Source: Komagataeibacter medellinensis NBRC 3288 (lineage in GTDB: Bacteria > Pseudomonadota > Alphaproteobacteria > Acetobacterales > Acetobacteraceae). Taken from it: 64,000 nt of DNA. A program made the translations under genes and the position numbers. Of this stretch, positions 4,208 to 57,467 are shown in pieces (the first letter of the stretch is position 1; every line of letters starts with the position of its first letter). The stretch lies in contig NC_016027.1 of NCBI RefSeq assembly GCF_000182745.2, positions 1,603,501 through 1,667,500 of the forward strand. The letters are read 5' to 3'. Under the pieces are notes generated by a model. It searched no databases. It had not been told where the DNA came from and saw nothing but the letters and a program-made list of their open reading frames with translations.

Positions 4208-4965
4208 ATATCGTTGTCCCGGTCCGGATTGAGGGCGGAATGCAGAACCTGCTCGGCGGCCGTGATGTCAGCCGGGCGGGAGAGATGGAACCATAGCGAA
4301 TCATGCACGATCACCCCCAGTCGGCCCGCCGCCATGGCCTGGTCCCACAACCTGTTCATGCTGAACGCACCTTCAGGCGCGCCCGCGAACAGGGCGGGCG
4401 AGACGATCTGCACCCCGGTAAAGACATAGGGCGTGATTTCACCCGCACGCGGGCGGCGTGGGTTACCATGGGTATCAATGGCAAAATCGCCCTGCCCTAC
4501 CTCCCCCACTGCCCGCGTCATGGCACCAAGCAGCAGCATGGCATCCATGCGCGCAGGATCAAAAGCCGCCGCCAGCCGCCGCAGGGCGGGCACGGGACCA
4601 TTGAGCCACATACCATCACCATTGAGCAGGAAAAACGACCCCGACCCCAGCCGTCCCGCCCGCAGCGCAGCAGCGGCACTACCACCGGTCTCCAGCAGGG
4701 TGGTTTCAACCTGTTCGGTCGTATGCGGCCCCCGCCCGCTGGCGGCGCGCGCGCCCAAGGCTGCATGAATGGCTTGCGGCTGCCAGTGGGCGTTGACCAC
4801 GACTTCGGGCACGCCCGCCGCCTCCAGCCGGTCCAGCACATGATCCATGATCGGCTGCCCCGCAACCTGCAGCAGCGGCTTGGGCACCTGCTCGCTCAGG
4901 GGTCGCATGCGTTGCCCCATTCCCGCTGCAAAAACCATGGCGACACGCGGCATGTCTACGCTCAT
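4204..4965 (-). CDS. Sugar-1-phosphate nucleotidyltransferase, MurU-like
   Basis: About 253 residues. The N-terminal signature VFAAGMGQRMRPLSEQVPKPLL is that of NTP-transferases, and FLLNGDGMW supplies the metal-binding aspartate region. The best family match by eye is MurU, which makes UDP-MurNAc from MurNAc-1-phosphate in cell wall recycling. The start at ATG 4965 is chosen because a GGGGAGGGGAG ribosome binding site precedes it and the ATG overlaps the tsaE stop; a longer frame upstream lacks such a site. In many alphaproteobacteria a kinase gene of the AmgK type sits between tsaE and this gene; here there is no room for it. Substrate is inferred, not shown. Confidence 0.8.
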   Translation of the reverse strand: MSVDMPRVAMVFAAGMGQRMRPLSEQVPKPLLQVAGQPIMDHVLDRLEAAGVPEVVVNAHWQPQAIHAALGARAASGRGPHTTEQVETTLLETGGSAAAALRAGRLGSGSFFLLNGDGMWLNGPVPALRRLAAAFDPARMDAMLLLGAMTRAVGEVGQGDFAIDTHGNPRRPRAGEITPYVFTGVQIVSPALFAGAPEGAFSMNRLWDQAMAAGRLGVIVHDSLWFHLSRPADITAAEQVLHSALNPDRDNDI

Positions 4966-5429: not shown

Positions 5430-5576
5430 GGCGCTGCCTTCTTCCGCCCTTGTGGGGTTGTCTTGCATTGGCTGATTGTGCCCCTGCCCCACCGCCATGC
5501 ACAAGGGGGTTGCACCATTGCGGGCAACAACGCAAAACCGCAGCCAACATATGCCTTTGACCTGATGGATCGCGGG

Positions 5577-6617
5577 ATGACAGAGCCGGACATGACCACC
5601 CCTTCCCCCACCCACACCACGGATGTGGCCATTATCGGCGCAGGCCCGGCCGGGCTGTTCGCCGCCTTTGAGTGCAGCATGCTCAAGCTGGGCTGCATCC
5701 TGATCGATGCACTCGATGCCGTTGGCGGCCAGTGCACGGCGCTGTACCCCGAAAAGCCGATTTATGACATTCCGGGTCACCCTGCCATTGAAGGCGGCGC
5801 GCTGATCGATGCACTCGACCGCCAGATCGCACCCTTTGACGTGCCCCGCCTGCTGGGCCGCCGGGTGGAAAGTCTGGAGGGCACGCGCGGCAGTTTTCGC
5901 CTGGGTACCAGCAACGGTGACACCATCCATGCCCATGCGGTCATCATTGCGGCGGGTGCTGGCGCATTCGGCCCCAACCGCCCCCCGCTGGAAGGGCTGG
6001 AAGCATTCGAGCGCAGTGGGGGCGTGCAGTATTTCGTGCGCCGCCGCGCCGACTTTGCCAACCGCGACGTGCTGATCGCAGGTGGAGGCGACTCGGCTGT
6101 GGATTGGGCGCTTTCCCTGCGCGAGGTCGCGCGCAGCGTAAAGCTGGTGCACCGGCGCGACCGCTTCCGCGCTGCTCCCGAAAGCCTGCGCCAGCTTGAC
6201 GAAGCGGTGGCGCGCGGCGAGGTCGAGAAGATCATCGGCTACCAGCTGCACGGCCTGCACGGCACGGACGGGCAGCTTGCAGGTGTGGACCTGGCCACAC
6301 TGGATGGCACGGTGCGCCATGTCGCGTGTGACCACCTGCTGCCCTTCTTCGGGCTGGCAACCGACCTTGGCCCCATCGCGCAATGGGGGCTGGACACTGT
6401 GCGCGGGACCATTCCCGTCACCCCCTCGACATGCGAAAGCAGCCTGTCCGGCATTTTTGCCGTGGGTGATGTCGCGACCTATCCCGGTAAGCTCAAGCTG
6501 ATCTTGCAGGGCTTTAGCGAAGGGGCCATGGCCGCACACGCCATCCATCCCATCGTACACCCCGAAACCGCGCTACATTTCGAATATTCAACCAGCAAGG
6601 GCGTGCCCACCACCTGA
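5577..6617 (+). CDS. Thioredoxin-reductase-type ferredoxin-NADP(+) reductase
   Basis: 346 residues from ATG 5577, a flavoprotein of the TrxR-like ferredoxin/flavodoxin-NADP reductase family. The FAD-binding motif IIGAGPAGLFAAFE is near residue 20, VGGQCTALYPEKPIYDIPG matches the family, and a second dinucleotide fold IAGGGDSAVDWAL lies in the middle. FAVGDVATYPGKLKLI near the end is the C-terminal FAD site. No CxxC redox motif of true thioredoxin reductase (CATC type) is present at the usual place, which favours the FNR reading. The frame is open further upstream to 5463, but that part overlaps tsaE and does not look like this family. Confidence 0.85.
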   Translation: MTEPDMTTPSPTHTTDVAIIGAGPAGLFAAFECSMLKLGCILIDALDAVGGQCTALYPEKPIYDIPGHPAIEGGALIDALDRQIAPFDVPRLLGRRVESLEGTRGSFRLGTSNGDTIHAHAVIIAAGAGAFGPNRPPLEGLEAFERSGGVQYFVRRRADFANRDVLIAGGGDSAVDWALSLREVARSVKLVHRRDRFRAAPESLRQLDEAVARGEVEKIIGYQLHGLHGTDGQLAGVDLATLDGTVRHVACDHLLPFFGLATDLGPIAQWGLDTVRGTIPVTPSTCESSLSGIFAVGDVATYPGKLKLILQGFSEGAMAAHAIHPIVHPETALHFEYSTSKGVPTT

Positions 6618-6711: not shown

Positions 6712-7977
6712 GTGAAGGTTATCGTTCTGGGCGCGGGCGTGGTGGGTGTTACCGCCGCATGGTACCTGGCAAAGGAAGGCCATGAGGTTACGGTCGTGGA
6801 CCGCCAGCCTGCAGCCGCGCTGGAAACATCCTTTGCCAATGCGGGCCAGATCTCACCGGGGTTTTCCGCACCCTGGGCCGAACCTGCCCTGCCGCTCAAG
6901 GTGCTGCGGTGGATGAGCGGCCGCCACGCTCCCATCACTATCCGTCCCCGCCTCGACCTGGCCATGCTGCGCTGGATCGGACAGTTGCTGGCTAACTGCA
7001 ATGCACATGATTACGGGATCAACAAGGCCCGCATGCTGCGCGTGGCGCAGTACAGCCGCGACTGCCTTGATACGCTACGCCAGGATACCGGCATTACCTA
7101 TGATGATGAACAGCGCGGCCTGATTCAGCTTTTCCGCACGCAGGCGCAACTTGATGGCGCCAGCCGTGACATGGCGCTGCTGGAACAGGCGGGCATTGCC
7201 CACGAACTGCTGGACCGCGACGGGATTGCCCGGCACGAACCGGGCCTTGCGGCAAAGCGACACCTGTTCAGTGGTGGCCTGCGCCTGCCAGGTGACGAGT
7301 CGGGAGACTGCCACATGTTCACCCAACGCCTGGCCCAGAAGGCGGAAGCGGAACTGGGCGTCACGTTCCATTATGAGACAGTGGTGGAGGCACTGGACGC
7401 CGCCGCCACCGAGATACTGGGCGTACGCACATCGCACGGGCGCCTGACAGCAGATGCCTATGTTGTTTCCATGGGCAGCTATTCCCCCCTGCTGCTGCGC
7501 CCGCTGGGACTTGCTCTGCCGGTTTATCCTACCAAGGGCTATTCCCTGACGCTGCCGGTCATCAATGCGATGCACGCACCGCTCTCGACGGTCAATGACA
7601 CGAGCCACAAGGTTGCTATCACCCGTCTGGGTGGGCGCATCCGCATTGGTGGTACGGCAGAACTGACCGGCTACAACCTGCGCCTGAGCCGCGACCGGCG
7701 CGCATTGCTGGAACTCTCCTTCTCCGAACTGTTTGGCGGCAGCGGCGACCTGTCACAGGCCACTTACTGGACCGGCCTGCGTCCGAGCACGCCTGATGGC
7801 ACGCCGGTCATCGGGCCGAGCGGACGGTTCTCCAATCTGTGGCTCAATACCGGGCATGGCACGCTGGGCTGGACCATGGCCTGTGGTTCGGGCCGTATCC
7901 TGGCAGACCGCATGAGCAACAGACCGACTGAAATCCCCAGCCTTGACCTGTCACTGGACCGTTACGCCAGAGGCTGA
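6712..7977 (+). CDS. dadA: D-amino acid dehydrogenase (DadA family)
   Basis: 421 residues, close to the 432 of E. coli DadA. This membrane-associated FAD enzyme oxidises D-amino acids, typically D-alanine, and passes electrons to the respiratory chain. The protein opens with the FAD motif VIVLGAGVVGVTAAWYLA and ends with WLNTGHGTLGWTMACGSGR, both diagnostic for the DadA subfamily of DAO-fold enzymes. The start is GTG 6712: AAGGA stands 8 nt upstream and the FAD motif then starts at residue 3; an ATG at 6637 would add 25 unrelated residues. No alanine racemase lies next to it. Confidence 0.9.
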   Translation: MKVIVLGAGVVGVTAAWYLAKEGHEVTVVDRQPAAALETSFANAGQISPGFSAPWAEPALPLKVLRWMSGRHAPITIRPRLDLAMLRWIGQLLANCNAHDYGINKARMLRVAQYSRDCLDTLRQDTGITYDDEQRGLIQLFRTQAQLDGASRDMALLEQAGIAHELLDRDGIARHEPGLAAKRHLFSGGLRLPGDESGDCHMFTQRLAQKAEAELGVTFHYETVVEALDAAATEILGVRTSHGRLTADAYVVSMGSYSPLLLRPLGLALPVYPTKGYSLTLPVINAMHAPLSTVNDTSHKVAITRLGGRIRIGGTAELTGYNLRLSRDRRALLELSFSELFGGSGDLSQATYWTGLRPSTPDGTPVIGPSGRFSNLWLNTGHGTLGWTMACGSGRILADRMSNRPTEIPSLDLSLDRYARG

Positions 7978-14719: not shown

Positions 14720-15199
14720 ATGAACACCCGCCCTATCCCTGATGACGGCAGTCGGTCCCTGACCCAGCTTGGCCAGAATGCCACCCAACCCTCCAGCCCC
14801 GAAGAAGCCAGACTGGAACGCGTACCCGCCCCCGAACGCGGGCAACACTATGTTATCCGCTTTACGGCGCCAGAGTTTACATCGCTCTGTCCGGTTACCG
14901 GGCAGCCGGATTTCGCACATATCGTGATTGACTATATTCCCGATGAATGGATCGTAGAAAGCAAGTCCCTCAAACTGTTCCTGACCAGCTTCCGCAATCA
15001 TGGTGCATTTCACGAAAAATGTTCAATGCAGATCGCGCTGACACTGGTTGACCTGCTCAAGCCTGTCTGGCTGCGGATCGGGGCCTACTGGTACCCCCGT
15101 GGCGGCATACCGATCGACATATTCTGGCAGACCGGCACCGCGCCCGATGGCGTCTGGGTTCCTGCGCAGGATGTACCTGGCTATCGTGGACGCGGCTGA
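14720..15199 (+). CDS. queF: NADPH-dependent preQ0 reductase QueF (short, type I)
   Basis: 159 residues. QueF reduces 7-cyano-7-deazaguanine to preQ1 in queuosine synthesis. The thioimide-forming Cys is in [13 protein letters not shown], followed by the conserved Asp; the QueF motif [20 protein letters not shown] is intact, as is the final DIFWQTG. The start could be ATG 14708 or ATG 14720; 14720 has GGA about 8 nt upstream. No other queuosine gene is nearby and I see no preQ1 riboswitch in front. Confidence 0.93.
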
Positions 15200-15221
15200 G
15201 CAATCAGCCGTGATTTTCATG

Positions 15222-15325
15222 CCTTGATAAAAAAATAATAAAGTTTTGTTTGGTATCGCTTTTTTAGAAGACGGTATTCTCTGAAGTTTTTTGGAAAAAG
15301 ATTCACCAAAAACTTCCTATTATTT
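15222..15325. repeat. MITE-like intergenic repeat, copy A (degraded)
   Basis: AT-rich element starting CCTTGATAAAAAAATAATAAAG and ending CACCAAAAACTTCCTATTATTTT, so its ends are imperfect inverted repeats. It aligns along its length with the element at 23591-23696. The internal hairpin arms clear in that copy are eroded here. It lies directly downstream of queF. Confidence 0.7.
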
Positions 15326-15870: not shown

Positions 15871-18260
<2,390 letters not shown>

Positions 18261-51704: not shown

Positions 51705-51780
<76 letters not shown>

Positions 51781-51843
51781 TTTTTCTTTGGTTTTCAACG
51801 ACTTAGCCAAAGACTTTTTTCTCCAACCTTTTGAAAATACACT

Positions 51844-51921
51844 AGCACAGTCCTAGCACAGGATTTTTGGGCTTAGTAAAATCAAAGGGTTAGCGGTGGA
51901 AAAGCACAGTTTTAAGCACAG
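51844..51921 (+). promoter_or_regulatory. Possible integrase arm-type binding sites
   Basis: AGCACAG occurs at 51844-51850, 51855-51861, 51903-51909 and 51915-51921. The first two are in an 11-bp tandem repeat (CTAGCACAG) and the last two lie in the start of the integrase gene. The same heptamer stands at 57356-57362 near the right end, where it is followed by TTTTA as at 51903. Spacing near a turn of the helix suggests protein binding. Confidence 0.4.
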
Positions 51922-53131
51922 CCCCGAAGCACTCTCGAAAAAAGAGTGGGTTATTTTCCAAAGGTCAGGCACACAAAACTGGTCTGTGAGATTCTCTTTG
52001 CCGGGTCAGGGCCAGATACGCGAATCGCTTAAAACAGCAGATGAAGCTGAAGCCCATAGACGCGCAGCCAAGACATATTATGCGGCATTAGCCCGTGCGG
52101 AGGCTGGCCTTGAAGCCCGCGCGAAAACAGTCACACAGGTGATAGAGGAATACGTTAAGGCCAAGAGTCCTAAAGACACTCATGCCGCCTACCTCCGCCG
52201 CTATGTGGCTGATTTTTGTGGACGTAAAGAGGCGTCACACCTAACCACAAAGACATTGAGTAATTTCATCCCGTGGCGCAAAACCTACTGGATTACTGGC
52301 CCCGGTAAGGATTGTGATTTCATCACTTACATGCGGGCTGGCAAACGGATATCCCGACCAGTTCAACGAGTCGCTCCTAGTGATGCCACCCTTTATGGGG
52401 AAATGATTGTCCTCAAAAAGTTCCTCACCTATTGCCGGGATTTCGGCTATATCGTCGCGATTCCAGTTTTAGACCGGATAAAACCGAAGGATAATGCCAG
52501 GCCCTCTTTCTCCACACCTGAAATCGAAACGCTAATGGCAACAGCCTACAGGCGTATATTAGAAGCCCAGCCGCATCCGCGCGTAAGATATGACCGCACG
52601 ATGCTTTATGCCTTCATAGGCATAATGGTGGGCACAGGGATGCGGCCTACAGAGGCCCAAAAGCTGAAATGGGGGGATGTGCTTGGTTTTGACGCGAACA
52701 GCCCTTATGAGGGCCAGAAAGTCACTTTACGGGTATCAGGCAAAAACAAGCATAGGGCATTTATCCCTCAAGATAGCATCCTAACGGACCTTGGTTTGAT
52801 ATGGGGAATCCAGTCAACCATATGGGGTAGGCCACCTAACCCGTCTGACTACGTGTTTGCGGATGAACAAGCACAACACGTAAAGTCCTTTTCCGGGGGA
52901 CTTAATGCCCTGTTAGAGGCTTGCCATCTAAAAAAGGATTACAGAGGGGCAGATAGGACAGCCTATTCCTTCCGACATTATCACATAACACATATGCTTA
53001 ATATGAATGTGCCGATTTATAAATTAGCTAAAAACTGCGGGACATCCGTAGATATGATTGAGCGGTTTTATTCCCATGTGACCCTTGAAGGCATTAGGGA
53101 TGACTTGAGAATCAAAACGAGTTCATTTTGA
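51896..53131 (+). CDS. Tyrosine recombinase (integrase) of the tRNA-Thr element
   Basis: 411 residues. Catalytic residues are visible: Arg in GTGMRPTEAQKLKWGD (near residue 250), the YSFRHYHITHML box (His/Arg region near 360) and the final Tyr in MIERFYSHVTLEG (near 392). The N-terminal part has an arm-binding-like segment (WVIFQRSGTQNWSVRFSLPGQ) and a SAM-like core-binding domain. The start is GTG 51896 with AAAGGG upstream. It is transcribed away from the tRNA, the usual layout for tRNA-targeting integrases. Confidence 0.92.
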   Translation: MEKHSFKHSPEALSKKEWVIFQRSGTQNWSVRFSLPGQGQIRESLKTADEAEAHRRAAKTYYAALARAEAGLEARAKTVTQVIEEYVKAKSPKDTHAAYLRRYVADFCGRKEASHLTTKTLSNFIPWRKTYWITGPGKDCDFITYMRAGKRISRPVQRVAPSDATLYGEMIVLKKFLTYCRDFGYIVAIPVLDRIKPKDNARPSFSTPEIETLMATAYRRILEAQPHPRVRYDRTMLYAFIGIMVGTGMRPTEAQKLKWGDVLGFDANSPYEGQKVTLRVSGKNKHRAFIPQDSILTDLGLIWGIQSTIWGRPPNPSDYVFADEQAQHVKSFSGGLNALLEACHLKKDYRGADRTAYSFRHYHITHMLNMNVPIYKLAKNCGTSVDMIERFYSHVTLEGIRDDLRIKTSSF

Positions 53132-53253
53132 CACAAAGCCCCACACAAAGGTCATGTCAGAAACACTTTTCAAAAAACGACGCATACAGAAAAATAAGAG
53201 GTGGTTGCGTTAGGAGGTCGGGCTTTTTGGATTTTACCCCTATACCCCTACAG

Positions 53254-53410
53254 GTTATGAGCGTTCATTCTCAAGGGATTGAACCAACACCTGGTAAAAG
53301 GTTAGGGTGTTATCACCCTTAAATTCTTCCCAAAACCCCCTATTATATATAGGGGTTTCGGGGGGTTTTTAAGGGCCATTTTGTGTGGGTAACACCTAGA
53401 GGTTGAACGC
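53254..53410. repeat. 157-bp direct repeat, copy 1
   Basis: Matches 55936-56092 with only two substitutions (53332 A/G and 53339 C/A) and no indels. It contains hairpin potential at TAGGGTG-TTAT-CACCCTTA and at the ACCCC...GGGGT arms, and a 21-codon reading frame starting MSVHSQG. It lies between the integrase and the helicase/primase gene. Confidence 0.93.
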
Positions 53411-53416
53411 TTTTTT

Positions 53417-53548
53417 ACTAAATAAACATAACACCTATGCTGGCCGCATATAGGTTCTACTAAATAAGAGTGAATAATCGTTCTTTAGAACCCAGAAGTC
53501 GGCCAGCCTTCTGGGTTTTTTTTAACTTCTAACAAGAAAGATTATTCA
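53417..53548 (+). promoter_or_regulatory. Structured leader of the helicase/primase gene (candidate attenuator)
   Basis: Three elements. Hairpin 1, TATGC-TGGCC-GCATA, spans 53436-53450. An intrinsic terminator has the 10-bp stem AACCCAGAAG/CTTCTGGGTT (53489-53498 and 53508-53517) and a T8 run to 53523. An outer stem pairs 53471-53485 with 53534-53548 (TGAATAATC with GATTATTCA plus TTCTT with AAGAA) and covers the AAGAAAG ribosome binding site. The loop of hairpin 1 and the terminator loop are complementary over 8 nt (GCTGGCCG with CGGCCAGC). TACTAAATAA occurs twice (53417, 53458). Confidence 0.7.
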
Positions 53549-55942
53549 ATGGCACAATACTTTAAGATAAATGCTCCATGTGGAGCCGGTAAAACTTACG
53601 CCCTCCCTCGTATTATCAACTACATACATGACAAGGACAAAATAGCTGTCATTTCTCAACCAAAGATTGACAATCTCAAGGAAACCGAAACTACATTAAG
53701 TGGCTTGGGTTTTAGTGTATTCCGCTTTGATAGTGAAAAAAATACAAGTCCTGTATCTGATATCATTGGATTTTTAAGCGGATCACCTAAAAAAACAGAT
53801 ATCCTTTTAGTGACCCATGCTGGTCTTATGGAAGCCATATCAGGATTAGGACACACAAACACATGCCTTGACCGCTTCGTGCTTATTATAGATGAAGCAC
53901 CTGCTATTTTCGGGACTCACAACATCCAGCTAAAACAACACTTCCGATTAATAACAGACAATGTGAGTCTTGTTAATGACAAAAAAACCATTTCGGAATG
54001 TAATGTAAAAAACCCACAACCACTAAAGAAATTCAGAGATGATCAAACAAGAGATGATATTAATGCGGTAATGGGTCCAATATCAAAAATTCTACTTGAC
54101 CCAACAATCGAAGTTAGCACCTTAACATCTAACTTTAAAAATCCAACAACCTCGCATTTAGAGTTTTTCTGGCATAGAACACCAGAGATTTTTGATAGTT
54201 TTAATGCGGTTATTATGATGAGTGCGGATTTTGACCAGTCCATATGTCATAATGTATGGAGTAAGAAATATAATGTCACATTTACGGATATGACCAGTAA
54301 GGTTCAGCTTAGATACGACAAACACACCAACACTGATAACACAACTATACACTTTTTTATGGCAAGGAAATATAGCAAAAAGTTAGGAAGTTCTGATAAT
54401 TATAACGTCCATAACCAAATGGTTGGAATAATTGAACGTATAATTAATGGTCAAGACTGTCTTACCATTCTAAACAACGACATTAATACAGATGTTGAGG
54501 AAGCTATAAGGCTTCCGACTCATTTTATTGTTAAGAATGTAACCATTCCTAACCCGGATTCCACTTCTGTTATATCCAGTTATGTTCATGGTCTAAACCA
54601 ATACCAACATATTAACAATGTAGCTTTTCTAGCGAGTCTTAATCTACCAGATCAGGCCGAAACTTATCTAATGGGGCTTGGTTTGAATGAGGTTGAAATC
54701 GAACAAGGTATCCTGTTGGCTTCAACCTATCAGGCTGTTAGTCGAACCTCTATCAGAAATCCCGACAACAACGCGGAACGCCATATCTTTGTGCCTGATT
54801 CCCGAAGTATGGATTTTCTACAAGAACGTTTCCCGCAGGCTTCCATTGTCTGTCATGAGTCTGAAATGTTTTTACCAGAAGAAAATCACGGAGGTAGACC
54901 TCCGCTTTCATCTTCAGGTGCTATGACACAAGCACAACGCGATGAACAAAAACAAGAAAGAAAACGCATTAAAGATGAATGTCAGTGGTTGTTGAATGAA
55001 ATAGAGTGGAATGATTCTAGTAAATTTGATGCGTGTATAATTGATGACATAAAAACAACTGGTATTGTTAAAAGACTTGAGTTCAATGATGCGGACGAAA
55101 TTATAGACTTCTTTAAAAAAGAAGAAAACTTTACATCATATGATAAAAAAACACCCAATCGTTTGATTTGGCCTGCCTTGGTTGATACTAATCCTTTAGA
55201 TTCAGGGACAAGGTTTGGAAAAAACAACGTGTTGTTTTCTTCATTCATTATGTTGGACAAGGATGAAGGGTATCCCGGTCATGACATGACTATGGATGAT
55301 TTCAGGCAAACATTCCCTGAAATCAAGATGTGTATGTATCAAACCTATTCTGGCCCCGGAAATTTCCGTGTGGTTATTCCTTTGGAACGTCCGGTTACAG
55401 GAGAAGCATGGGAGGTGCTTACCCGTGAAATCAGTCGCATAATGTATGAAAAGGGATTCAAAGATAAGGGAGGGAATCTGCCTTTTGATGACAGCAAATA
55501 TAACTGTGCCAGTAAGTTTTACCTACCGAATCACGAACCAATGACGGACATGGATTTTCGTTTATATGACGGTGAAGTCCTTGATCCCTTTGATATCATA
55601 GATAAAGCCTTGGTCGTGGATAAAAAGCATAAAGACCAGCCATTAACCCCAGAGGAAAGGGTTGTTGCCCTTAATGCTTTCAAAGCAAGATTGAGTTCAG
55701 AGGGGAAAAATCAGGGCGATTATATCCAAAGCAAGATTGAGGATTTTGAATCCCTACCTGATGGGTCAGGCCGTTATGCTAAGTTTTTCGGACTAGGTTG
55801 TATTCTCGCACGTAACGGGTTCGATGAAACCGAAATCAGGGACACATTAATGGCGTGTAGATACACGGGCTTGATTGCCAAAAATAAAGCACAGAGAATT
55901 GAGAGCATTATCAAGTCCCTCCGTAAAAGGGGCCTGTTATGA
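53549..55942 (+). CDS. Helicase-like plus primase-like replication protein of the element
   Basis: 797 residues. The N-terminal third resembles a superfamily 2 helicase: P-loop APCGAGKT (Lys15), LLVTHAGL, and the Walker B VLIIDEAP (Asp115, Glu116). STYQAVSRTSIRNP near residue 400 recalls motif VI arginine fingers. After a charged linker (residues 455-485), the C-terminal third looks like an archaeo-eukaryotic-type primase: FIMLDKDEG (Asp570, Asp572), GNFRVVIPLERPV (605-617), FDDSKYNCASKFYLPNH, then a PriCT-like end from about 730. Probably the element's replication protein. Family names are by pattern only. ATG 53549, with AAGAAAG 8 nt upstream. Confidence 0.7.
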   Translation: MAQYFKINAPCGAGKTYALPRIINYIHDKDKIAVISQPKIDNLKETETTLSGLGFSVFRFDSEKNTSPVSDIIGFLSGSPKKTDILLVTHAGLMEAISGLGHTNTCLDRFVLIIDEAPAIFGTHNIQLKQHFRLITDNVSLVNDKKTISECNVKNPQPLKKFRDDQTRDDINAVMGPISKILLDPTIEVSTLTSNFKNPTTSHLEFFWHRTPEIFDSFNAVIMMSADFDQSICHNVWSKKYNVTFTDMTSKVQLRYDKHTNTDNTTIHFFMARKYSKKLGSSDNYNVHNQMVGIIERIINGQDCLTILNNDINTDVEEAIRLPTHFIVKNVTIPNPDSTSVISSYVHGLNQYQHINNVAFLASLNLPDQAETYLMGLGLNEVEIEQGILLASTYQAVSRTSIRNPDNNAERHIFVPDSRSMDFLQERFPQASIVCHESEMFLPEENHGGRPPLSSSGAMTQAQRDEQKQERKRIKDECQWLLNEIEWNDSSKFDACIIDDIKTTGIVKRLEFNDADEIIDFFKKEENFTSYDKKTPNRLIWPALVDTNPLDSGTRFGKNNVLFSSFIMLDKDEGYPGHDMTMDDFRQTFPEIKMCMYQTYSGPGNFRVVIPLERPVTGEAWEVLTREISRIMYEKGFKDKGGNLPFDDSKYNCASKFYLPNHEPMTDMDFRLYDGEVLDPFDIIDKALVVDKKHKDQPLTPEERVVALNAFKARLSSEGKNQGDYIQSKIEDFESLPDGSGRYAKFFGLGCILARNGFDETEIRDTLMACRYTGLIAKNKAQRIESIIKSLRKRGLL

Positions 55943-56092
55943 GCGTTCATTCTCAAGGGATTGAACCAACACCTGGTAAAAGGTTAGGGTGTTATCACCC
56001 TTAAATTCTTCCCGAAACCCACTATTATATATAGGGGTTTCGGGGGGTTTTTAAGGGCCATTTTGTGTGGGTAACACCTAGAGGTTGAACGC
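55936..56092. repeat. 157-bp direct repeat, copy 2
   Basis: Starts within the last codons of the helicase/primase gene, whose TGA overlaps the ATG of the 21-codon frame (ATGA). Offset from copy 1 is exactly 2,682 bases throughout. Confidence 0.93.
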
Positions 56093-56185
56093 CTTACTAG
56101 ACCGCATTTCCATGTATTCGTTTTCGATGCGTCAGTCATATGATGAATATATCATGATAAAAAACGAAATATTATCACTTTTTCC

Positions 56186-56214
56186 TTGACATTAACATGT
56201 ATTTTTGTTAATAT
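56186..56214 (+). promoter_or_regulatory. Strong promoter with internal palindrome
   Basis: -35 TTGACA (56186-56191), 17-nt spacer, -10 TAATAT (56209-56214), near consensus. TTAACA-N8-TGTTAA (56192-56211) fills the spacer, as expected of a repressor site. It serves the small ORF at 56277. Confidence 0.7.
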
Positions 56215-56276
56215 TACTTTGTATTTTAGGGGATTATCCGCTGAAACCAAAGAAACAAAAATTCTGAAAGGAAAAA

Positions 56277-56495
56277 ATGAAAGAATCTAATATCGAAAAC
56301 GGGACAAGAAATCTCATAGGAGATGACTGGTCATCTCTTGACCTGGAAGAAATCAATGATGTTTCCAGTTACTATCCCGGTTGTAGGGCTTGGTTTGATG
56401 GACGCAACCAAACCATTGTTATACACGACCGGAACACGAGGCATGTTGTCAATCTTCTCTCAAAAGAGATTGACGATAAACCAGCCACGTTCTGA
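56277..56495 (+). CDS. Small acidic protein of the element, function unknown
   Basis: 72 residues with an AAAGGA ribosome binding site 6 nt before the ATG, a near-consensus promoter upstream and a strong terminator just after it. This makes it a real and probably well-expressed gene. The N-terminal half is acidic (DDWSSLDLEEINDVSSYY); the C-terminal half (WFDGRNQTIVIHDRNTRHVVNLLS) may form beta strands. I see no helix-turn-helix and do not recognise a family. Possible roles for a small protein here include copy control or an anti-host factor, but nothing in the sequence decides this. Confidence 0.75.
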   Translation: MKESNIENGTRNLIGDDWSSLDLEEINDVSSYYPGCRAWFDGRNQTIVIHDRNTRHVVNLLSKEIDDKPATF

Positions 56496-56502
56496 TAAAC
56501 CC

Positions 56503-56540
56503 AAAAACACCCTGTGTGACAAAAACACAGGGTGTTTTTG
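56503..56540 (+). terminator. Strong intrinsic terminator after the small ORF
   Basis: AAAAACACCCTGTGT / ACACAGGGTGTTTTT arms of 15 bp around a short loop, with T-run. Confidence 0.92.
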
Positions 56541-56610
56541 TAGCTAGCAGCTAACTTTGCCTTTCACGAAAGCCGCCCAAGGTAGACACGTGGGCGGCTT
56601 GGGATATCAG

Positions 56611-56730
56611 TGTCACTTTAGCCCTTGCTCTAAAGTTACTGATCGGATGTGACATTTTTGTGTAACTTTAGAATTATTTTTACATTTATGTTACATACAT
56701 TTGTCAGGGTTTAAGATTCTAAAGTTACAC
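56611..56730. promoter_or_regulatory. Palindromic sites upstream of the serine recombinase (res-like)
   Basis: Four copies of an 11-mer close to GTNACTTTAG in two inverted pairs. Pair 1: TGTCACTTTAG-CCCTTGCT-CTAAAGTTACT (56611-56640), 9 of 11 positions symmetric. Pair 2: GTGTAACTTTAGAAT (56660-56674) and its exact reverse complement at 56716-56730. Resolvase recombination sites normally lie directly upstream of the gene in this way. Confidence 0.55.
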
Positions 56731-56745
56731 ATTCGGAGGTGGGAT

Positions 56746-57309
56746 ATGTTTATCGGCTACGCACGGACCAGCACAACGGATCAAGTGGCGGGTTTGGAAG
56801 GTCAGGTCAGAGACTTGGAAACCAAGGGTTGTGCCAAGGTGTATGCGGAACAGATATCAGCTACCTCCACCCATAGGTCAGAACTGGCAGCCTGTATGGA
56901 TAACTTACGGGCTGGCGATGTGTTGGTGGTTACAAAGCCTGATCGTCTGGCCCGATCAACGGCTGATCTACTTGCTTTGGTTAAGGATATTGAAGGCAAA
57001 GATGCTGCCCTGTTGATCCTTTCAATGGGAGGACAGGAGTTAGATACCCGCAATCCGACAAGTAAGCTGATGCTAACCATGCTTGCCGCTGTGGCGGAGT
57101 TTGAACGCGATCTTATGAAGGAAAGACAGTCAGAGGGGATTGCTAAGGCTAAGGCCTTTGGCCGCTATAAAAGGCGCAAGCCCTTAGCTGATTCCATCTG
57201 TAAACAGGTTACAGAACGACATAAAGCGGGGATAGGGGCAACAGCCCTTGCCCGTGAATTGGGCATCAGTCGTATGACGGTTTATCGAATCTTACGACGC
57301 AAACATTAA
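56746..57309 (+). CDS. Serine recombinase (resolvase/invertase family)
   Basis: 187 residues. The N-terminal catalytic domain starts MFIGYARTSTTDQ with the nucleophile Ser near residue 8; TKPDRLARSTADL and LTMLAAVAEFERDLMKERQSEG (helix E) are typical. A C-terminal helix-turn-helix reads GIGATALARELGISRMTVYRILRR. Size and layout fit the small Tn3-resolvase/Hin group. GGAGG 7 nt before ATG 56746 fixes the start. It may resolve dimers of a circular form or invert a segment. Confidence 0.93.
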   Translation: MFIGYARTSTTDQVAGLEGQVRDLETKGCAKVYAEQISATSTHRSELAACMDNLRAGDVLVVTKPDRLARSTADLLALVKDIEGKDAALLILSMGGQELDTRNPTSKLMLTMLAAVAEFERDLMKERQSEGIAKAKAFGRYKRRKPLADSICKQVTERHKAGIGATALARELGISRMTVYRILRRKH

Positions 57310-57421
57310 AAAGTTTTCACATTACAATACGGTTAGCAACTAACTGCCAAAATGTAGCACAGTTTTATCACACACTTTTTAGTGATCAATAATATCAATG
57401 TGTTATTATGCTTTTGTCATT

Positions 57422-57467
57422 TTGGTAAGGGAGAGGTCGACAGTTCAATCCTGTCCAGCAGCACCAT
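57422..57467 (+). repeat. Right attachment site (attR core)
   Basis: Exact copy of the last 45 tRNA-Thr bases plus one. It is not a functional tRNA because the 5' half is missing. Confidence 0.93.

Follow-up and report, generated by a model that had tools for sequence, protein, structure and literature searches.

A putative RNA attenuator with complementary loops before replication genes of alphaproteobacterial phages and integrated elements

An integrated element of about 5.7 kb, found in a 64,000-nucleotide stretch of Komagataeibacter medellinensis NBRC 3288 (contig NC_016027.1, positions 1,603,501 to 1,667,500; hereafter the window), carries a gene for a helicase-like protein whose leader ends in a terminator-like hairpin directly before the start codon. 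The loop of this hairpin (X') is an exact complement of a site farther upstream in the same leader (X). Helicase homologues of distant relatives are preceded by the same arrangement, and from the comparison of these leaders it looks like an RNA attenuator that is conserved among phages and integrated elements of Alphaproteobacteria. What is observed is this architecture, the fact that it recurs in distant relatives, and that X and X' change together; a stem covering the ribosome binding site (RBS) accompanies them in part of the family. The proposed explanation, to which a probability of about 45% is given, is that the RNA released at the terminator acts in trans on new leaders, driving a self-limiting attenuation that is backed by a second, translational lock.

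The leader before the helicase gene

All parts of the window leader lie on the forward strand. It begins with a box, ACTAAATAA (53417..53425), whose TAAATA core (53419-53424) ends 14 nucleotides (nt) upstream of X. X itself, GCTGGCCG (53439..53446), is the complement of the terminator loop and lies in hairpin I (53433..53455), which appears in the RNA folds; a second copy of the box follows at 53459..53467 and is kept in the nearest relative, Novacetimonas cocois. The 5' arm of an outer, RBS-covering stem (53471..53485) precedes the intrinsic terminator (53489..53523), which has arms at 53489-53498 and 53508-53517, the loop TCGGCCAGC and a run of eight T (53516-53523). Within the loop, X' is CGGCCAGC (53500..53507), the exact 8-nt complement of X, at a distance of 53 nt from it. 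The T run ends 25 nt before the ATG at 53549, and the 3' arm of the outer stem (53534..53548) contains the AAGAAAG ribosome binding site (53534-53540). A first-pass annotation of this DNA had described a terminator with a 10-base-pair (bp) stem and eight T about 25 nt before the start codon, an 8-nt complementarity between its loop and an upstream hairpin, and an outer stem hiding AAGAAAG; every item was found in its place, the loop match proved exact, and 14 of the 15 positions of the outer stem pair. That annotation overlooked the ACTAAATAA boxes, a short open reading frame (ORF) encoding MLAAYRFY over hairpin I (53437..53463; the same peptide in N. cocois, probably incidental) and a 160-bp direct repeat that ends near the first box.

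Folding of 53400-53560, a check suggested by the same annotation, gave -38 kcal/mol, as compared with a mean of -27.05 (standard deviation 3.55) for shuffled sequences, which corresponds to a z-score of -3.08, none of 200 shuffles being as stable. The shorter segment 53400-53527 folded at -35.3 kcal/mol (z-score -3.84; again 0 of 200). The outer-stem helix reached p = 0.002. The X:X' match was attained by 0 of 200 shuffles when all hairpin pairs were considered and by 0 of 1000 with the terminator loop fixed, values to be taken with caution in that the shuffles of the window preserve its AT-rich local composition. The 8-mer GCTGGCCG has 17 matches in the 64 kb, 7.9 being expected, and they lie mostly outside the element, in GC-rich flanks; at this rate, its chance of occurring in a given 150-nt single-strand stretch is about 0.02. 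Inside the element (51705-57467) the forward strand holds a single copy, at 53439. ACTAAATAA occurs twice in the leader, with 0.05 occurrences expected in 64 kb. Among the T-tailed hairpins of both strands of the window, the leader terminator is the only one with an 8-nt upstream loop complement at a strict setting; at a looser one, 1 other of 26 hairpins has such a complement, with no TAAATA box. Because GCTGGCCG is frequent in the GC-rich flanks, the window alone is insufficient to prove the pairing, and it is the relatives that supply the proof.

A near homologue of the helicase was found in N. cocois (G073; 67% identical) and in no other of the family genomes searched (299, then 397), and the leader was in none of 18 other genomes of the genus Komagataeibacter. 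The window helicase had no plasmid match at E 1e-5 and no match in viral contigs, where the exact DNA pattern of the leader also gave 0 matches. The N. cocois element (locus L011) is of the same kind and occupies the same tRNA gene, and its leader retains X, X' and the box. Its terminator stem differs from that of the window by three two-sided changes, all of them paired, in a comparison that involves two sequences and a weak shuffle control (47 of 500 reach the value). The outer stem has a matched extra A and T, and 90% of its aligned cells pair. X and X' are identical in the two elements and so uninformative on covariation. As a separate observation, an in-frame stop (L011 5951-5991) breaks the helicase gene of N. 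cocois, the leader of which is intact.

Recurrence in distant relatives

The loop complement was assessed in 27 leaders of helicase homologues. In each, the strongest of the hairpins within 140 nt of the start codon was chosen, the 150 nt upstream were searched for the longest exact match to the complement of its loop, and dinucleotide shuffles of that stretch served as control. This procedure was framed after most of the matches had already been noticed by eye, and the start codons of distant homologues were chosen by the analyst. In 11 leaders the hairpin so chosen had a T tail or a terminal T run, and in 10 of these 11 the loop complement exceeded that of the shuffles (p 0-0.014). The match is 8 nt long in the window and in N. 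cocois, 10 nt in L031 and L043, 6 nt in L032 (p 0.014), 9 nt in L070, and 11 nt in each of L062, L063, L065 and L067. Leaders added later and treated in the same way gave 7 of 7 loop bases in L089 (p 0.013) and 9-nt matches in L100 and L101, both close to L070 (p 0.0015-0.002), the leader of L099 being the same as that of L070; in L090 neither a T-tailed hairpin nor a loop match was found. In L086, which was seen by eye first, 6 of 6 loop bases match (p 0.058), X being the loop of GGG[CGGCAA]CCC. The strictly prospective cases are L089, L090, L100 and L101, together with L046, which was found by a hairpin scan. Window and N. cocois are not independent of each other, nor are L062, L063, L065 and L067, nor L070 and L099-L101, which by our count leaves as independent groups window/N. 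cocois, L031, L032, L043, the L062 group, the L070 group, L086, L089 and L046.

The scan covered the T-tailed hairpins of all loci then in the set (L031, with its 15-nt loop, falls outside it). Of these 63 hairpins, 13 had a complement to their loop, at least 8 nt long, farther upstream. All 13 sit in leaders of such elements, 10 before helicase homologues and three before other genes. The former include L046, a leader new from the scan, with a 9-nt match and a box before a protein with primase and helicase matches. In L062 and L070 the latter precede the gene that comes next after the helicase (same key, different genes), and in L050 a downstream gene, where a paired-loop terminator at 5570-5720 (GATGACAG upstream, loop CCTGTCAT) stands before the gene that follows the helicase homologue and has no TAAATA box. 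This recurrence in relatives of the helicase gene shows that the architecture did not arise by chance.

The geometry of the leaders is also shared. In 11 of 11 leaders folded, a hairpin loop holds X or a part of it, the spacing between X and X' ranges from 53 to 130 nt in 14 elements, and the X:X' duplex energies of 11 leaders run from -6.3 to -18.9 kcal/mol, pairing in cis being judged by this energy alone, as pseudoknots are outside the reach of the folding tools. In all 14 elements measured, TAAATA precedes X by 9-26 nt (probability in shuffles 0-0.055 each); the L050 element, outside these 14, is without it, which makes 14 of 15 terminator-type elements. TAAATA may be a promoter -10 box or a signal in the RNA, and no -35 element before it is conserved across the leaders; the leader on the K. 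nataicola plasmid has a good consensus promoter further upstream of the box. Several elements have palindromes, different from one another, at some tens of bases from the box on its upstream side (L102 13370-13387; window 53316-53375 and 55998-56057). They may be operators or origins, and the one in L102 reads as a terminator on the minus strand.

Joint change of X and X'

Covariation of the key was seen in Sinorhizobium. The prophage loci L065 and L062 are 92.2% identical over 241 bases around the leader, and yet one has the key GGCTTGGTAAC/GTTACCAAGCC (X/X') and the other CGGCTGGAAAC/GTTTCCAGCCG; the two forms of X differ by one insertion and one substitution, each of them matched in X'. Across the four Sinorhizobium leaders, terminator and X:X' together comprise 25 pairs, 100% of which are paired, with five two-sided changes (one in X:X' and four in the terminator), as against 0-1 in slid controls; the column pair of the matched insertion was excluded from this count. 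In the aligned leaders, then, X and X' change together. Compensatory changes, for which the first-pass annotation had pointed to homologous elements, are thus present both here, in terminator and X:X', and in the three two-sided positions of the N. cocois terminator stem.

The 40 kb around L062 in pSymB of S. meliloti M270 (L102) contain 15 T-tailed hairpins, and in three of them the loop has a complement of 10-12 nt. Each of these three attenuators has the TAAATA box, and their keys differ; the first stands before the helicase gene, the second (15096-15260) before a small gene and the third (17395-17595) before a GIY-YIG nuclease gene. The presence of three different keys in one prophage region is compatible with self-specific control. 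When this region was scanned together with the window, L011 and 45 kb of the K. nataicola plasmid, 6 of 68 T-tailed hairpins had both a complement of at least 8 nt and a box. In IMG/VR, related loci appear as viral contigs of 33-36 kb, and the K. nataicola plasmid combines terminase, portal, capsid and tail genes with a relaxase and a replication initiator. Copy-number control of a single tRNA-integrated element, as originally annotated, is therefore too narrow a description, the feature being found also in prophages, on a plasmid with phage genes and before genes other than the helicase.

Proposed mechanism and alternatives

The model proposed here starts from the intrinsic terminator just before the helicase gene, which would stop transcription of the leader. 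The RNA released at this point would be stable and would display X' in its loop, and this X' would pair with the X of nascent leaders before their own X' has been made, the emergence of X 53-130 nt ahead of X' leaving time for a partner in trans. Once X is occupied, the terminator would form freely; when X is free, cis pairing between X and X' would hinder the terminator and the polymerase would pass. The outer stem covering the ribosome binding site would be a second lock, acting on translation. Expression of the replication gene would fall as its own leader RNA accumulates, resulting in copy control or prophage immunity, and X and X' would constitute the specificity key. More tentatively than the mechanism itself, the leaders may be taken to form a class of self-sensing attenuators in which the released terminator RNA represses its own transcript, with the loop as seed and the TAAATA-headed hairpin as target, providing alphaproteobacterial phages and elements with a swappable immunity key, up to three keys per prophage.

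Several results weigh against this model. The diversity of X and X' would be expected also if the pairing acted within one molecule only, cis pairing may outcompete the trans partner once the leader is complete, and the fully paired loops of 6-7 nt (L032, L086, L089) could leave the terminator stem intact, so that antitermination would not be required. L044 has a T-tailed hairpin and misses the match (p 0.78), and 16 of the 27 leaders (L005-L008, L019, L021, L022, L024, L025, L039, L042, L050-L053 and L056) have neither a terminator of this kind nor a match. In L005 and L006 the loops CTTGGCG/CGCCAAG sit in hairpins without a T run, reached by 7 of 200 and 3 of 200 shuffles, so that any action there would be on translation; their RBS-covering helix is strong (p 0.002 and 0 of 500), and TAAATA precedes X by 30 and 31 nt. 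For L032 the hairpin-pair test yielded no signal (109 of 200), and in L031 its choice fell on parts of the terminator itself; other hairpin pairs, in L019, L022 and L051, had low values (4-11 of 200). The outer stem is significant (p < 0.05) in 9 of the 23 leaders tested, and not in L031, L063, L070, L086, L089 and nine others, and the helix found in L065 differs from that of L062. No promoter was identified in the window by a promoter scan that is crude for Alphaproteobacteria.

The first alternative to be considered is that an antisense RNA transcribed opposite hairpin I binds X, and that X:X' otherwise blocks the terminator, as in pT181, or opens the ribosome binding site, as in the IncI-alpha pseudoknot. 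This is unlikely, if the strongest of the competing explanations. The placement of X in hairpin loops agrees with it, as loop targets of this sort are used by antisense-controlled replicons (PMC10724649, PMC5703833). The S. meliloti leader has two overlapping minus-strand terminator-like sites (L102 13387-13370; 0.3 expected), about 45 nt left of X, which could end an antisense RNA; none was listed left of X for the window, N. cocois and K. nataicola plasmid leaders. The loops of L005 and L006, which lack the terminator, resemble the I-complex pseudoknot sequences. Against it, no antisense promoter-like site placed to transcribe over X was found in these four leaders with the same crude scan, the sole minus-strand promoter-like site (L011 4824-4795) lying upstream of the box. 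These results bear also on the pT181-style copy control of the first-pass annotation, of which one part is retained, namely that a replication gene of an element integrated at a tRNA is under control of the attenuation type. Its specific analogy to pT181 is not supported: the crude scan gave no antisense promoter-like site in the required position, and the candidate pre-emptor of the window, GGTTCTA/TAGAACC, is kept imperfectly and in part in N. cocois. A purely intramolecular switch, in which X:X' forms in cis only and a third input (a protein, the ribosome or the speed of transcription) decides on the terminator, is rated as somewhat less probable again. It accords with the location of X and X' on the same RNA, with their spacing and duplex energies, and with the fact that several different keys in one prophage require no trans partner; its weakness is that no input has been identified, and that even among the similar leaders of Sinorhizobium no ORF is conserved, which makes a translated leader peptide unlikely as a general input.

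For the same reason, a leader peptide was rejected as the general mechanism: no ORF is shared among 14 leaders, and the three Sinorhizobium leaders that have in common an ATG after the box diverge in frame. A control of the RepY/Tap type confined to MLAAYRFY, whose translation would open the outer stem or the terminator, is very improbable. The ORF ends 7 nt before the outer stem and encodes the same peptide in N. cocois, with one synonymous change; a single such change in 27 nt is weak evidence, though, inspection revealed no Shine-Dalgarno-like sequence before the ATG, and the peptide is in none of the 12 other leaders. The least credible explanation of all is an ordinary terminator of upstream transcription next to an incidental inverted repeat, with a loop match by chance. 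Terminators between an integrase and the next gene are common, and the abundance of GCTGGCCG in the GC-rich flanking DNA would favor such a coincidence; what speaks against it is that several independent lineages have the arrangement in altered sequence, and that the two partners change together.

The integrated element

The element extends from about 51.7 to 57.5 kb of the window, between the tRNA-Thr(GGT) gene that serves as attachment site (51705..51779, forward strand) and a copy of the 3' part of this tRNA at 57422-57467. A tyrosine integrase gene (51896..53131, forward strand; Pfam PF00589, PHROG integrase) precedes the leader. The putative controlled gene (53549..55942, forward strand) encodes a helicase-like protein of 797 amino acids with a primase-like C-terminal part. 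It matches phrog_31024 (2.2e-88) and phrog_2467 (3e-47), and its residues 553-706 match primase phrog_9765 (3e-9) and helicase phrog_256 (1.9e-7); its P-loop part is helicase-like, the DEAD/ResIII scores lying under Pfam's cut-off. The element further encodes a serine recombinase and has an ORF of 72 amino acids for which no match was found. Before the recombinase gene lies TGTGTAACTTTAGAAT (56659-56674 / 56716-56731), an inverted repeat of 16 bp that is perfect and may be a binding site; a similar sequence also precedes the N. cocois recombinase.

The leader and the helicase gene form a module between two copies of a 160-bp direct repeat on the forward strand, which are 98% identical. The upstream copy (53254..53413), which contains an AT-centred palindrome, stops 3 bases short of the first box, and the downstream copy occupies 55936..56095. 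In N. cocois the corresponding pair (L011, about 4697-4860 and 7394-7570; 97%) is largely unlike that of the window, though there too the repeat stops some three bases short of the box, and such near-identity within an element together with divergence between elements suggests concerted evolution. Recombination between the 160-bp repeats would release a 2.7-kb circle with leader and helicase. The repeats were rejected as a part of the regulator, being present in the window and N. cocois and in 0 of 8 other loci compared.

Relation to known systems

RNA control of replication or immunity is known from a few model plasmids and P4-like phages, and in Alphaproteobacteria, to our knowledge, mainly from repABC plasmids. 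No match to the leader was obtained in Rfam release 15: at the gathering score the window gave four tRNAs only, and seven loci a single match (the small RNA Atu_L1 at L102 38310-38465), and at E up to 1 none of six matches in eight loci lay on a leader. No description of a paired-loop attenuator appeared among the papers listed by searches of an open-access library, subscription papers and preprints being outside their scope. If the proposed model is true, RNA control with a changeable key would extend to the phages and elements of a range of Alphaproteobacteria, acetic acid bacteria and rhizobia among them, and compatibility or immunity groups would become predictable, because X and X' can be read from the sequence.

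Small antisense RNAs within the repABC operons of Alphaproteobacteria act on the repC leader through attenuation and RBS masking before the replication gene. The leader described here would share with them a small RNA, attenuation and RBS masking, and it belongs to the same bacterial class; it differs in that the RNA there is an antisense RNA and that no RepABC genes were seen in the element. In IncI-alpha, IncB and IncL/M plasmids, a pseudoknot activates rep translation, depends on a leader peptide and is not known to involve an intrinsic terminator. There too a loop pairs with a distant site near the ribosome binding site of the same leader, whereas here the partner is in the terminator loop and there is no general leader peptide. 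In I-complex plasmids, according to PMC10724649, RNAI and the leader loop SLI kiss, and the loop sequence sets the specificity.

In pT181 and pIP501, attenuation before rep depends on a counter-transcript, and pT181 control further requires a pre-emptor able to pair with the terminator at its 5' arm (PMC5703833). The likeness consists of a terminator-like stem directly before the rep start codon in a structured leader; the difference is that here the terminator loop itself is the pairing partner, that the crude scan of four leaders found no antisense promoter, and that no pre-emptor is clearly kept. Satellite phage P4, in turn, ends the leader of its replication genes prematurely, and the CI RNA derived from the same transcript pairs with complementary sites (PMC4825925). 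P4 immunity (CI RNA, seqA, seqC) resembles the present case in having complementary sites on the same transcript in the leader of a replication gene, and the trans action proposed here would follow its logic. It differs in that CI RNA comes from processing and has two flanking targets, whereas here X occurs once on the forward strand of the element, upstream of X', its complement is the loop of an intrinsic terminator by the start codon, and an RBS-covering stem is added. The comparison with P4 at the level of homology covered Rfam and protein families. The leader is a demonstrated member of none of these systems, and it shares features with those of pT181, the I-complex plasmids and P4.

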